Part shown: piece by piece, positions 28,113 to 34,086 of the stretch | How positions within the stretch are numbered: position 1 is the stretch's first letter | Layout of the letters: each line of letters begins with the position of its first letter | Source: a virus | Virus record (IMG/VR): IMGVR_UViG_3300037115_000070 | Coordinates: 1-37,539 of that record | DNA length: 37,539 bases | Reading direction: 5' to 3' (one strand) | Position numbers and translations under genes: made by a program | Notes under the pieces: model-generated | The model's input: only the letters and a program-made list of their open reading frames with translations | The model's database searches: none | What the model was told of the DNA's origin: nothing

Positions 28113-29627
28113 CTACCCTCCAACTTCAAGCGGGTTCCACTCGTGCTCGTGCTGCACGCTGCGCTGTGCGCGCGCGCGTTGCTCTTTGCGGTCGAACACC
28201 GCGGCGTGCTCGCCAGCGCCGAGGCAGACGTATTGCAGCGCATCGTGCGGGTGGCTCGCCTCGTTCTTCTCGGGTTCGTCGTGGTACTCCTCCACGCCTG
28301 GGCGCACGCGGCGGAACCGGTAGCTGGAATTGAAGCCCTCGCGCACCAGGATGCAGCGCGGGCTGAGCGTCAGGCCGGGCTGGCCGTCGATCATGCGCGT
28401 CAGCGGCAGCGTCACGGCGTCGATTCTTGGGATCAACCGGTTGGTCGGCGCCGGGATGATGGGGATACCCGTCTTGCTGCTGACGATCTGGATCCATGAC
28501 TGCTCGCCGGCGCGCTTGTCGTTGCCGTCGGCGGCCGAGGGGTCGGCATAGCCGCGGATCGTCCGCGCGTTCGGGAAACGATCCTTTAATCGCCGCGCCA
28601 GCGCCTCGCCGAACCGCGTCGCTCCGGTGCCGGTCTCGCCAACCAGCTCGTCGATGATGCGCCATTGCCCGTTGGGCAGCCGCTGGTTGAACACCGCTGC
28701 CGGGTTCAGCCCGGCATCGAGGCCGATCAGCAGCGCCAGCCCCTCGATGAATTCAAGTTCGGTCAGCGCGGTGTGGACGGTATCGGCGAAGTCGGCATAA
28801 ACCGGGCGGCCCTCGCGGGAAAACCCCGGCTTGTTGTCGATCATGCGGGCGATGTACCAAGCCTTCCGCGCGTTGGTGCGAGCCTGCCCGCCGTAGTAGT
28901 CCGGCGTCAGGTTTATCAGGTTTTCGGCGTTCGGGCTGCGGCCACCTGGTTGCTGGAACAGGTCGATATCGAGCTCGGCCAGCATCGACGGGCTGAGCTT
29001 GAAAATGTTGGTGTAGAGCCAGGACCGCAGCTCGGGCGCGTTGGCGTCGGCCAGCACACCGTGCCAGTTCGGACCGCCGTCATCCATGTCGGGAAACCGC
29101 CCGGCGCGCCCGACCGCGAACGTCAGCACGTCCTCGTCCAGCAGATCGAGCTCGTTGAGATACCAGGCGGTCACCTCGAACCCGCGCATCACGTCTTCGG
29201 CTGCGTTCTCGCCGATCGCGAGGAAATACGCCTCGAAATCGACGATCGAGCCGTCATCGAGCTGGAAGTTGACCCGGTGGGTGGCGGGGCCGTTCTCGCC
29301 GCCGTTGAAGGTGCCCATCTCCCGGGGCACGAGCTTGAACCAGCTCGGCAGCGTGGTGCGCCAGAGCTGGCGATAGGTGTCACGCACCACACCGAACCGA
29401 AACAGATGCACCAGCGCCCGCTCGCCCTGAGCGTTCCTGGCGAAACGGCGTTTGCTGGTGGTCTGGCGGCTGCCGAGCTGCATCCCTTTGATCAGACAGG
29501 TCGTGGTTTTTCCCGACCCGATCGGGCCATTGAGGATCTGAACCTTCCGCGTTGCGGCCATGAACCGCTCGGCCACTGGCCCTGGCGGCCGCCACGACAG
29601 GCGGATCAGGCCGTCCTCGTCGCTCAT
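28113..29627 (-). CDS. terL: Terminase large subunit (ATPase-nuclease)
   Basis: 504 residues. It packages DNA into the procapsid through the portal, using an N-terminal ATPase and a C-terminal RNase H-type nuclease. Walker A GPIGSGKT lies at 34-41. The Walker B-like strand is VTAWYLNELDLL, ending in the catalytic Glu. The nuclease motif GLDAG lies in ALLIGLDAGLNP, with further acidic residues in GYADPSAADG and SHPHDALQYV. The length is normal. Its start overlaps the upstream ORF stop by ATGA. Confidence 0.93.
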   Translation of the reverse strand: MSDEDGLIRLSWRPPGPVAERFMAATRKVQILNGPIGSGKTTTCLIKGMQLGSRQTTSKRRFARNAQGERALVHLFRFGVVRDTYRQLWRTTLPSWFKLVPREMGTFNGGENGPATHRVNFQLDDGSIVDFEAYFLAIGENAAEDVMRGFEVTAWYLNELDLLDEDVLTFAVGRAGRFPDMDDGGPNWHGVLADANAPELRSWLYTNIFKLSPSMLAELDIDLFQQPGGRSPNAENLINLTPDYYGGQARTNARKAWYIARMIDNKPGFSREGRPVYADFADTVHTALTELEFIEGLALLIGLDAGLNPAAVFNQRLPNGQWRIIDELVGETGTGATRFGEALARRLKDRFPNARTIRGYADPSAADGNDKRAGEQSWIQIVSSKTGIPIIPAPTNRLIPRIDAVTLPLTRMIDGQPGLTLSPRCILVREGFNSSYRFRRVRPGVEEYHDEPEKNEASHPHDALQYVCLGAGEHAAVFDRKEQRARAQRSVQHEHEWNPLEVGG

Positions 29628-29866: not shown

Positions 29867-30129
29867 CGGGGGCGCCCACGGGCGGCCGGGCGTGGCGTGT
29901 GCCCTGGCGCGGCCGAGCTGACGAGGTCGGGCAGCAGCGCGCGCTGCTGCCGGCATCGATCGAGGATGCACGTGTGCGGTGGCAGCAGGTATTGGCATTG
30001 GCACTGTGGCAGCGGTTGCTGGCTCGGCGCGGCATGCTGATTGCCGATCAGTGGCCGGACAGGCGGATCGTCCTGGGATGTCAACGCCTTAGCCTCGGCG
30101 TCAGACTGCTTGCTATCAGACTGGCGCAT
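29863..30129 (-). CDS. Small Pro/Gln-rich ORF downstream of small terminase
   Basis: 88 residues starting MRQSDSKQSDAEAKALTSQDD. It has a QPLPQCQCQYLLPPHTCILDRCR segment with four cysteines and an Arg/Pro-rich end. It overlaps the small terminase stop by 14 bp and the next gene by GTGA. No known domain. Translational coupling supports it, composition does not. It may be a short accessory to packaging or a chance ORF. Confidence 0.45.
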   Translation of the reverse strand: MRQSDSKQSDAEAKALTSQDDPPVRPLIGNQHAAPSQQPLPQCQCQYLLPPHTCILDRCRQQRALLPDLVSSAAPGHTPRPAARGRPR

Positions 30130-30649
30130 CCGGGGCCTCGCTAAGTGGTTGATCCGACAGGATTTCCAGGACTGCGCCGGTGAGCGTCATGCCGAGGTCG
30201 TCCCCCGGCCCGCCTGCATCGGCAGTGCCAGCCGCGTCCATGATCGAGAGGTAGACAACCTGCCGGTTCGTCAGGTCCACCGCGAGCGGCTGGCGCTGGT
30301 GCACGTAGGGCAGCAGCGCGATCGCCGCCTGGCGCTTCTCGGCCATGGCTTCCAGCGCGGTGCAGGCCAGGCTGTCGCGCAGAGCGGTGACGTGGGCCGT
30401 TGCGATTTGTGCCAACACCTCGAGGGGGCTGCCATAGCGGCGCGTAAGGTAGTTTGCCCAGGCGACCGTGCGCTTGTTGCGGCTGCCCAGCGGTCGGCCC
30501 GCGCCGCGCGGCACGGCTGCCGCGCTCGGCGTGCCCGAGCGTGGCGCCGGCAGTCCCAGCAGGTCGAGCTGCTCCGCCTCGGCGCCAGGCGGTGCGCCCG
30601 ATGGGTCAGCCTCGTCGAGCACCGCAGTCAGCCCGTTCAACTCCGCCAT
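30116..30649 (-). CDS. terS: Putative terminase small subunit
   Basis: 177 residues from the ATG at 30649, chosen because AGAGG lies 6-7 bases upstream. A GTG at 30673 would add 8 residues. After an acidic, Pro/Ala-rich N-terminus comes GRPLGSRNKRTVAWANYLTRRYGSPLEVLAQIA, a basic DNA-binding-like helix pair often seen in small terminase-like phage proteins. A helical middle with QAAIALLPYVHQRQP and a loose C-terminus follow. It lies upstream of terL with two small genes between. It should recognise the packaging start site. Identification is from motif and position. Confidence 0.7.
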   Translation of the reverse strand: MAELNGLTAVLDEADPSGAPPGAEAEQLDLLGLPAPRSGTPSAAAVPRGAGRPLGSRNKRTVAWANYLTRRYGSPLEVLAQIATAHVTALRDSLACTALEAMAEKRQAAIALLPYVHQRQPLAVDLTNRQVVYLSIMDAAGTADAGGPGDDLGMTLTGAVLEILSDQPLSEAPDAPV

Positions 30650-30708
30650 ATCCACCCTCTTGTTAATTGCCACATCGGCCGCGAAACGAGAATGCCAGCA
30701 ATATCAAT

Positions 30709-30943
30709 GCGTGAGACAGCGTGAGACGCAGCGTGAGACGTGAAGTCGAGTGCGGGCCTACGCTTATTTTGATTTCTCACGCTCTCACGCTTCTCACGCA
30801 GAGTTACTCATGATGCGCGTGCACGCGCGCGCGTGTATTACGCGCGAAGTGCGTGAGAGCGTGAGAAGCGTGAGAAATCCACCAAAACAGCCGTGATATC
30901 AACGAGTTACGTCGTCTCACGCTGTTCTCACGCTGTCTCACGC
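30709..30943. repeat. Array of 12 octamers GCGTGAGA in four alternating triplets (candidate origin)
   Basis: The gene-free stretch 30674-31007 carries GCGTGAGA at 30709, 30719 and 30731. TCTCACGC (its complement) is at 30775, 30783 and 30792. GCGTGAGA recurs at 30851, 30859 and 30868, and TCTCACGC at 30915, 30926 and 30936. That is three copies in each of four blocks, orientation switching block by block. The two inner triplets form a near-perfect long inverted repeat. Between them lies a 26-bp alternating purine-pyrimidine tract. Iterons at near one-turn spacing beside a helicase-primase pair suggest a replication origin. A pac site or regulatory operator are alternatives. Confidence 0.75.
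30813..30838. other. Central alternating Pu-Py tract with 14-bp palindrome
   Basis: 26 consecutive bases alternate purine and pyrimidine (mostly CG/CA steps), a sequence type that can form Z-DNA under supercoiling. A perfect 14-bp palindrome GCGCGTGCACGCGC lies at 30815-30828, close to the exact midpoint (about 30826) of the octamer array. Confidence 0.75.
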
Positions 30944-31007: not shown

Positions 31008-31235
31008 ATGGGGTGGGGCTACCGATCCGCTGGGGCCGGGGGCCGCATCCACACCAACACGATTGAAGGATTTTGGGCCATCGTGAAGCGCGCGATCTAC
31101 GGCCAGTTCCACCACGTCAGCGAAAAATACTGGCCGCCGTATCTCAATGAGTTGACGTTCCGCTACAGCGAGCGGTCCAATGCCAACGCGTTCGGCCTCG
31201 CGCTTCATCTTGCGGTTAAGCCCCAAAGTGTATAG
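31008..31235 (+). pseudogene. IS1595/ISXO2-like transposase C-terminal remnant
   Basis: About 60 residues (from 31047 on) match the C-terminal end of IS1595-family DDE transposases: IHTNTIEGFWAIVKRAIYGQFHHVSEKYWPPYLNELTFRY, including the N-T-I-E-G-F-W motif with its catalytic-region Glu. The first two catalytic acids and the N-terminal domains are absent, and the sequence upstream is the repeat array. The tail AAGCCCCAAAGTGTATAG resembles the usual end region of such elements. No matching left end was found. It faces the helicase gene tail to tail, 12 bp apart. A fossil insertion is likely. Confidence 0.8.
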
Positions 31236-31247
31236 CTCCGGATCATG

Positions 31248-33041
31248 TCAAAGCGGCAGTTCGGGCTGCTGATCAGGCGGGGGCGGAACGAGATCGAGCG
31301 GCACCAGGGTGGTGCGCACGCTGGCGCCCCCGATGTAGATCGAGGGGCCTGCGACGGCACCCAGCAGTCGCCTGAGCGTCTGCATCCACACCCCCATGCT
31401 GCCGGCGCCAGTGGCCCAGTGGGTGTTCGCGAACAGCGGTGCCAGGCCACTGTGCTGGTTGGCGATCGCCAGCCAACGCTGACGGTTTTTGTCGGTGAAC
31501 ACCGTCAGGCCGTACAGCGCGATGGCGCGACGTGAATCATCGACATGCCCGTCGACGCGGCCAAGCGCGCACTGGAGATATTCGCCGAGCGGTTTGCGCC
31601 CGCCGCGGAATGGATCCACCGGCGCTTGCAGCAGGTGGTTGAGGCATGCCTCCGGATCGTCCACCGCCTCACTCGTCTCCGTCAGGTCGCCGGCGGCCGC
31701 GCGCCGCACCCACTGCTGCGCCATGCCAGGGTCCACGTCGCCATCGAACAGCAGGATATCAGCACTGCAAAGTAACGTTCCGAACTGATCCGCCCCGCGC
31801 GCGGAATGACCCTGCTGCTGCAGGGCGCTCCGGTAGTACGCGAAAGTTCGCGCAAATCGCGGCCATCCATCAATCATGCGCCGGCGCAGTAGCGCGCCCA
31901 GTCCACGCAATCGTTTCGCATCAAGTGCAGGTTCCGGCATGCCCGCGGGCAGTTTGTCCAGCTCGAGCACGGTGATGCGCGAGCGATCCTGCGGTTTCAG
32001 CGGCGGCATCAGGATCGAGCTGAAGGCGAAGCAGCTGCGGATGGTGAACTCGACTGCCTTGTGGCGATCGGTGCCGCGCATGAGCTTCCCGCCGCTCGGC
32101 GCCAACCGCGCCAGCTCGATCACCGCGTTCGCTTTGCGGTTGTCAACGCCCGCCTCGAGCTCCTCAAAGATCACCGGGAACGTCTGGTGTTTCAGCGTCT
32201 GCCAGAGGCTCGGCCCGGTCGCGTCCGAGGTCTGCACTCGCGCATCGCCAAACAACCCGTGCAGCAGGCGGTGCAGCGTGCTCTTGCCGGTCCCGCTGCC
32301 GCCAGTGAACCAGATCACCGGGCGCCACGGCAGCGCGCCACCGATCAGCGCTGCGCCCACCCAGCCGAGCAGCAGGATGGCGTCGAGCTCGACGTCGCTG
32401 TCCTCGGTTGGCTTGCGTTTCCAGTTCCAGCTGCTCAGCAGCGTCAGCACTTCCTCGGCCGCAGTGGCGAGGCCGGGAGATCCCGCCGGCGCCGGCACGC
32501 CGGCGGCTTCATCTGCCGGATAGACGTACCGGCCGATCAGACCCGTCTCGTGCTGCGCGGGCGCGTGGAAGAAGTCCGCAGCCGGCGGAAAAACGAACAC
32601 CGTTGATCCTGTGTGGATCACCAGCTCGCCATCGTCACCGTGCCAGGCTCCGCGCCCGCGCTCGCGCTCCTCGGCATTCCAGATGCCTGCGCGGTCGCAG
32701 GCGATCATCAGCGCGCCGGCGACCTCCTCGGGTTTCCAGCCGATGACGGCGCCTTCCTTGTTCAGCCGCGGCCATTGGTCGCGCAGCCAGGCCTGGTCGC
32801 CGCCGAACAGCCCCATCAACGACAGTCTTCCGTGCTTCTCGTCCTGCAGCGCGCGGAGCTGCCGCGCGACGTCGAGGTAGTACCGAGTGTCCCCGGACAG
32901 GCCGAGCGGGGTCACCGGGCAGCCCGGCGGCAGCAAGCTGGCGGGATCGCCACGCCGATCGCGGGGAGGCGCCGTCGCGGGCTTGGCGCCGGCCGCCGCC
33001 TGCCGCACGCGTCGTGTGCCGCCGCCGTCAGGCATCGGCAC
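31248..33041 (-). CDS. D5/SF3-like replicative helicase
   Basis: 597 residues. A Walker A motif FTGGSGTGKST lies at about 245-255 (Lys253), and a Walker B-like PVIFEELEAG follows about 45 residues later, then GGKLMRGTDRHKAVEF and FSSILMPPLKPQDRSRI. The layout (N-terminal region of 200 residues, then an AAA-type ATPase) matches phage/plasmid helicases that work with a Toprim primase. The gene overlaps the primase stop by 14 bp, and primase and helicase are co-transcribed. It probably loads at the adjacent octamer array to start phage DNA synthesis. No phage DNA polymerase is present, so the host replisome would be recruited. Confidence 0.82.
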   Translation of the reverse strand: MPMPDGGGTRRVRQAAAGAKPATAPPRDRRGDPASLLPPGCPVTPLGLSGDTRYYLDVARQLRALQDEKHGRLSLMGLFGGDQAWLRDQWPRLNKEGAVIGWKPEEVAGALMIACDRAGIWNAEERERGRGAWHGDDGELVIHTGSTVFVFPPAADFFHAPAQHETGLIGRYVYPADEAAGVPAPAGSPGLATAAEEVLTLLSSWNWKRKPTEDSDVELDAILLLGWVGAALIGGALPWRPVIWFTGGSGTGKSTLHRLLHGLFGDARVQTSDATGPSLWQTLKHQTFPVIFEELEAGVDNRKANAVIELARLAPSGGKLMRGTDRHKAVEFTIRSCFAFSSILMPPLKPQDRSRITVLELDKLPAGMPEPALDAKRLRGLGALLRRRMIDGWPRFARTFAYYRSALQQQGHSARGADQFGTLLCSADILLFDGDVDPGMAQQWVRRAAAGDLTETSEAVDDPEACLNHLLQAPVDPFRGGRKPLGEYLQCALGRVDGHVDDSRRAIALYGLTVFTDKNRQRWLAIANQHSGLAPLFANTHWATGAGSMGVWMQTLRRLLGAVAGPSIYIGGASVRTTLVPLDLVPPPPDQQPELPL

Positions 33042-34086
33042 ACACCAGATCGTTGACGTCTTTCATGCTTGCGGGGATCTCCGGCACCAGCACCTGGCGC
33101 CCGGCGCCGAAGTGCGCCTCCAGCGCGCGGTTGAAGGCGGCGATGGGTGCGGGCTTGCTGTCGTTCTGCCGCCACAACCGGACCGTGCGCGCCGCCGGTG
33201 GCAGCTCGACGGTGCCCATGTTCGACAGCGAAATTGCCGCGATCACGCGGAACTCCGGGCAGGCGTAGGCGACCGACAGTCCGTCCTCGATCCCCTCGGT
33301 GATGTCGATCGTTTCATCGGGCGCCATCTCCCGGAACGGCTTGCCGCTCGCCCCGCGCCACAGACGGATCGCGCAGCCCCGGTAGCCGCCCAGCACTGCC
33401 TTGTTACGCTCGACCGGCGCCTTGGCCACACTGCCGTCGGCGCGTTCCTCCAGCCATGTGCGGTGCACCGCGGCGGCGCTGCCATCGGGCGCCGTGATCA
33501 GCGACAGCATCGCCGGCCAGTGCCGCCGGCTGGGCACGTGCCAGAGCTGCGGGTGGTACCGCAACGCCCGCGGCTGGCGGCCGAGCGCGGCCAGCGAGAT
33601 GCCGCGCGACGTCAGGTAACGGTCCACCGGCGTCCCGCGCACGACGGCGCACGCGCCGAGCCATAGGCGCAGCGCGGTGCTGCGTGTGGCGGCGGCTTCT
33701 TCTTCGGCCTGGCGATCGAGCGCAGCGCCATCCGGCACCGCTGCGCGGGCAGCCGCGAGCCGCGTCGGATCTGCACCCTCCAGTCCAAGCCAGCTCTTCG
33801 CCCAGGCCAGCGCCTGGCGCTTGTCGCTGCCGTACCGAGACTGTGCGATCAGGTCGAGCGCATCGCCCGTTTCGCCTGTTGCGAAGTCGCACCAGATGCC
33901 GGCTTTCGCGCCGACCAGGTGCACCGCCAGGCTGTCGCCGCGTTCGCCGGCGAGCGAGCCGGCGCGCCATTCGTGACCATCGCGCCGGCCGCCTGGCAGC
34001 ACCGCCGGCGCCAGCTCGCGCACGCGCGCATTGAGCATGCGGGCGATCTCGCCGACTTCGACCAGGTTGCGCGCGATCGCGGTCAT
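33028..34086 (-). CDS. Toprim-domain primase
   Basis: 352 residues. The N-terminal part (about 40-100) contains GIWCDFATGETGDALDLIA, the zinc-less CHC2-like region common to phage primases. Then RGTPVDRYLTSRGISL and the central DUF7146-like region (ALRYHPQLWH, MLSLITAPDG, AVHRTWL). The Toprim domain follows from about 250: DITEGIEDGLSVAYACP, with the catalytic Glu, and VRLWRQNDSKP. In the last motif the usual Asp-x-Asp appears as Gln-Asn-Asp, so one metal-binding Asp may be replaced. It makes primers for the neighbouring helicase. Its start overlaps the preceding membrane-protein stop by ATGA. Confidence 0.85.
   Translation of the reverse strand: MTAIARNLVEVGEIARMLNARVRELAPAVLPGGRRDGHEWRAGSLAGERGDSLAVHLVGAKAGIWCDFATGETGDALDLIAQSRYGSDKRQALAWAKSWLGLEGADPTRLAAARAAVPDGAALDRQAEEEAAATRSTALRLWLGACAVVRGTPVDRYLTSRGISLAALGRQPRALRYHPQLWHVPSRRHWPAMLSLITAPDGSAAAVHRTWLEERADGSVAKAPVERNKAVLGGYRGCAIRLWRGASGKPFREMAPDETIDITEGIEDGLSVAYACPEFRVIAAISLSNMGTVELPPAARTVRLWRQNDSKPAPIAAFNRALEAHFGAGRQVLVPEIPASMKDVNDLVCADA

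Follow-up and report, generated by a model that had tools for sequence, protein, structure and literature searches.

The main finding of this study is that a compact array of octamers in a 37.5-kb viral contig (the window, that is, the whole 37,539-bp stretch of DNA analysed) is probably the DNA replication origin of this phage and belongs to the kind known from satellite phage P4 and the PICIs. This reading rests on how the array is built, on a scaffold conserved among relatives that use other motifs, on the array's association with helicase genes and on the predicted fold of the neighbouring helicase. Exact matching in the window finds twelve copies of GCGTGAGA between positions 30709 and 30943, ordered as three plus, three minus, three plus and three minus. 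The plus-strand copies start at 30709, 30719 and 30731 and at 30851, 30859 and 30868, and the minus-strand copies at 30775, 30783 and 30792 and at 30915, 30926 and 30936, which gives start-to-start spacings of 10/12, 8/9, 8/9 and 11/10 bp in the successive triplets (Table 1). An earlier sequence-only reading had described these twelve octamers, their four alternating triplets and their spacings, and every copy is exact and lies where it was placed. The octamer is not equally common through the rest of the genome, because only three further exact copies occur in the contig (at 17524, 34951 and 37173). At this density outside the array about 0.02 copies would be expected per 235 bp, which excludes chance as the source of the array and agrees with the earlier view that a chance origin was very unlikely. 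The array is also mirror-symmetric, with six pairs of opposite-strand octamers mirrored about a centre near 30825, while at least four mirrored pairs are reached in none of 60 shuffled relatives. The mirror symmetry first noticed in the letters is therefore real, but the palindrome around which it was thought to turn is not the conserved part; what is conserved across relatives is the 3+3 / 3+3 spacing together with IHF-like sites. No similarity at the DNA level was found between the array region and known phages.

Table 1. Components of the octamer array and neighbouring genes in the window
Feature	Position	Strand	Basis
Outer GCGTGAGA triplet, terS side	30709..30738	+	Exact matches
Inner GCGTGAGA triplet, terS side	30775..30799	-	Exact matches
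Centre of mirror symmetry, GC-rich, with alternating CG/CA/GT steps	30800..30850		Letters; mirrored pairs
Inner GCGTGAGA triplet, helicase side	30851..30875	+	Exact matches
Perfect match to the IHF consensus, TATCAACGAGTTA, in the spacer separating the inner from the outer triplet on the helicase side	30897..30909	+	Consensus match; enriched across relatives
Outer GCGTGAGA triplet, helicase side	30915..30943	-	Exact matches
AAA+ replicative helicase, proposed initiator	31248..33041	-	PHROG DNA primase families; AlphaFold; Foldseek; VIA-align
Toprim primase (DUF7146 + Toprim_3)	33028..34086	-	Pfam
Probable TerS, rival candidate for binding the array	30116..30673	-	Precedes TerL; similar to the gene at the same position in relatives
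TerL	28113..29627	-	phrog_2, weak; similar to BcepC6B TerL

The genes around the array form a minus-strand set in the order toprim primase, helicase, array, probable TerS and TerL, with a head-tail connector further on, so that the helicase-primase genes lie to the right and the terminase genes to the left, as had been read from the sequence. The array is 305 bp downstream of the helicase stop, and a plus-strand remnant of an IS1595/ISXO2-type transposase (31008-31235; Pfam DDE_Tnp_IS1595) lies in between. The probable TerS has no Pfam hit. Because the array in the window lineage stands between the helicase and terS, its position alone does not decide which of the two genes it serves.

The same arrangement, built with another motif, is found in most relatives of the helicase, which we gathered from viral contigs and bacterial genomes. 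The motifs in these relatives include GTTAGAAA, TGGAACC, CGTTGCA, GTCGTA, CGTAACA and CGTGAGA. Pairs of the window octamer in other viral contigs are scattered, and one of these contigs (L018) carries a CGTGAG array adjoining a helicase relative. In about 67 non-redundant arrays the spacing is mostly 8-9 bp in the inner and 10-12 bp in the outer groups, with medians over the 67 of 42 bp for the gap between inner and outer groups, 73 bp for the centre and 249 bp for the whole span. The conservation beside helicases in related phages that the sequence-only reading proposed to look for is thus clearly present. The spacers between inner and outer groups are AT-rich in the relatives, and a perfect IHF consensus (WATCAANNNNTTR) occurs in 14% of them, compared with 0.2% of shuffled spacers; these sites also tend to mirror each other in orientation. 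The centre alternates purines and pyrimidines more than the flank does in 52 of 69 relatives. The motifs of groups with and without a linked TerS resemble each other well above column-permuted motifs. Shared polarity of the motif between these two groups was considered as proof and dropped, since the same polarity gives the closer match in just 12 of 18.

The array could belong to the helicase or to TerS. In one alternative it would be a packaging site (cos or pac): the octamers would be recognised by TerS, IHF would bend the DNA in the manner of lambda cosB, and the terminase would begin packaging there. The cosB site of lambda likewise has repeated protein sites flanking an IHF bend next to terS, but it has three sites in a one-sided layout, adjoined by a nicking site, and no link to a helicase gene. 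The window lineage seems to favour such a reading, as its arrays lie at a median of 80 bp from terS with the helicase up to about 4 kb away, and IHF-like sites stand between the site groups. This closeness to terS does not hold across the relatives. In phage phi1422 the array follows the helicase by 11 bp and TerS is 7 kb off, and in Acjo_20 it lies about 260 bp upstream of the helicase and kilobases from terS. In KLER1-1 it comes directly after the helicase, while in MQ-4 and ZRG1 it sits between helicase and terminase, kilobases from each. Arrays also adjoin helicases in phages that have no recognisable relationship between their terminases. Where no homologous TerS was found (18 loci), the median distance to the helicase stop is 6 bp and most arrays are within about 10 bp of it, compared with a median of 305 bp in the TerS-linked group. 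This presence of the array at the helicase where there is no homologous TerS favours the helicase as the gene to which the array belongs. Another alternative is a partition site, or else a large operator or silencer controlling the late operon, read by a repressor, an activator or a ParB-like binder. Such a site would suit the many phages of this group in which the array separates the early genes from the late operon, yet the array stays behind the helicase even when kilobases separate it from the late operon, and a non-exhaustive search found no conserved regulator gene travelling with it. We give this explanation hardly any credence, and the silencer-type operator suggested earlier has no support of its own.

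Because a collection based on the helicase is biased toward helicase-linked arrays, a second collection based on TerL was made for balance. A strict scan for mirrored pairs proved insensitive, finding 38 of 117 helicase-positive records (sub-loci and duplicates included), and we therefore scored presence or absence by a cluster statistic that asks for at least seven identical 6-mers in two directions within 2.5 kb upstream of TerL. Of 66 helicase-positive loci, 60 have such a cluster, as against 2 of the 36 helicase-negative loci and one of 306 shuffles, which again favours the helicase. One of the two helicase-negative loci with a cluster is L163, where the scaffold stands beside another helicase family; its GGTTAC array (L163:5690-5880) overlaps the 3' end of a gene for a toprim-VapE-like primase-helicase. 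The association is not without exceptions, since PY223 and Dolphis have the helicase and no array near it. G007 (L160), whose contig stops short between the helicase and TerL, was not taken as evidence either way. Among contigs lacking the helicase, a 32-kb one with terS shows no array, which speaks against packaging. L151 (contig L234) speaks for it, having a degenerate CTGTAATGCC/CTGAAATGCC array before terS (about L151:7950-8240) and no helicase on its 14.3 kb. The TerS and TerL of this contig are close to those of the window, and it also encodes repressor-like, excisionase-like and integrase genes. A further TerL relative, with no helicase on its 8-kb contig, has repeated GGTTATCCGTAG/GGTTAACCGTAG-like words (L187:4040-4240). 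BcepC6B has a short inverted CGATAGGGA-like array at the start of its record (L129:1-110), downstream of the D5-type primase-helicase gene gp46, and the record ends fall beside this array; it was not counted as a member. Nor was VA-RY-3, a TerL relative without a mirror score in which AGGATA occurs nine times, in both directions, between two genes (L141:4867-5114).

Co-variation of the motif with helicase, TerS and TerL, assessed by distance matrices and by alignment columns, does not point to the helicase above the others. Among alignment columns the two strongest are in TerS, and motif similarity tracks helicase and TerS about equally, which would be compatible with packaging and also with a joint site, that is, an origin for the helicase at which, in the window lineage, TerS also starts packaging. 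The array is indeed close to both genes in that lineage, but the same scaffold lies far from terS elsewhere, and we regard a joint role as very improbable. Mirror symmetry has no role in one-way packaging from a single site. Taken together, packaging is an unlikely function of the array, though less so than either a joint or a regulatory one, and among the functions first offered for it a replication origin is the best supported.

The helicase itself points in the same direction. By sequence it matches no Pfam family above the cut-off, with DUF927, DUF5906 and the P4 primase C-terminal model matching weakly. Its AlphaFold model has a pLDDT of 92.6. Foldseek with this model retrieves D5-type helicases (poxvirus E5/D5, AsfvPrimPol, NrS-1 and SaPI5), and VIA-align ranks SCCmec Cch highest (Z 16.0 across 418 residues), with MCM and SaPI5 helicases next, the latter at a Z of about 15. 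The fold of the predicted model is thus that of a D5/Cch/SaPI-type ring helicase, as would be expected of the initiator. The C-terminal domain folded alone reaches a pLDDT of 91 and gives as its first match, a weak one, residues 452-558 of SaPIbov1 Rep (Z 4.5), and then several winged-helix DNA-binding domains, none above Z 4.5; Foldseek and sequence searches with this domain gave nothing significant. From these models we propose that the C-terminal part of the helicase, about 140 residues spanning roughly 455-597, may bind the octamers.

Several known systems resemble this arrangement. In the crr and ori regions of satellite phage P4, both annotated as replication elements, type-1 octamers likewise stand in groups of alternating direction; the P4 octamer is TGTTCACC, and we take its alpha protein to be a different helicase-primase. 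The spacings (crr: 9, 43 and 18; ori: 10, 11 and 43) are close to the 8-9, 10-12 and about 42 bp of the arrays described here. The alternation and the similar spacings favour the helicase as the array's gene. The alternation in P4, the nearest known kind, also contradicts the earlier statement that iterons normally share one direction. The P4 crr also ends 51 bp past the alpha stop, like the arrays past helicase genes. Unlike in the window, however, the P4 sites are split over two regions, crr is a tandem repeat with no mirror image, and no IHF consensus with fewer than two mismatches is present in crr or ori. Compared by published descriptions, the rep-ori units of PICIs and SaPIs (SaPIbov1 Rep, EcCICFT073 Pri-Rep) also combine a helicase-initiator gene with an origin directly 3' of it, and the structural match of the window helicase falls within this group. 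In SaPIs and PICIs the iterons form two sets and are read by the C-terminal domain of the helicase (PMC7581432, PMC6092414); in PICI origins these sets flank an AT-rich stretch (PMC6092414). As in P4/PICI-type origins, the short iterons of the window form two sets, the twelve octamers being divided between two mirror halves. In contrast to PICIs, the octamers form four alternating groups accompanied by IHF-like sites, full-size phages carry the array, and the centre between the two sets is not AT-rich, although the spacers within each half are. The array is therefore better regarded as a variant of the P4/PICI kind of origin than as a plain PICI origin. For SCCmec, whose Cch is the best structural match of the whole window helicase, the repeats bound by Cch2 follow closely on the cch2 gene, in the putative cch2-ccrC origin (PMC7581432); just three short direct repeats have been reported at that site, and replication of SCC is unproven.

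How the array might work can be outlined from its geometry. The C-terminal domain of the AAA+ helicase would bind the octamers, of which each half offers six, three outer and three inner in the opposite direction. The spacer of about 42 bp could be bent by host IHF or a similar protein, folding the outer group back onto the inner one, and each folded half could then seat one hexamer. Two mirror halves would set down two hexamers facing opposite ways, leading to bidirectional replication, with primers for both forks made by the toprim primase. The AT-rich spacers or the centre are candidate sites for the first opening of the strands. Cumulative GC skew is mixed and confounded by gene direction.

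The new design claimed in the sequence-only reading needs to be narrowed. Alternating octamers at about these spacings are already known from P4, two iteron sets are known from PICIs, and an origin 3' of a helicase-initiator gene is known from both. What we did not find described in the open-access literature is the mirror-symmetric 3+3/3+3 scaffold with IHF-like sites, present in dozens of phages with a freely changing motif. We tentatively suggest, with rather less confidence than in the origin itself, that this scaffold may define a separate class of phage origin, in which 2 x 6 sites folded by IHF load two helicase hexamers back to back, shared by dozens of phages and more than one helicase family, with an octamer that changes with the helicase and hence many mutually exclusive origin specificities. 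If the array is an origin, a large phage group whose replication start is mostly unannotated, including the cultured isolates phi1422, MQ-4, ZRG1, Acjo_20 and KLER1-1, would gain a predicted origin and initiator. With its fixed spacing and free motif, the array would then allow a direct test of how ring helicases are loaded onto double-stranded DNA facing opposite ways, and could yield a collection of origin-initiator pairs that work independently of one another. Such an origin would also connect full-size phages with the P4 and PICI satellites through their replicons.
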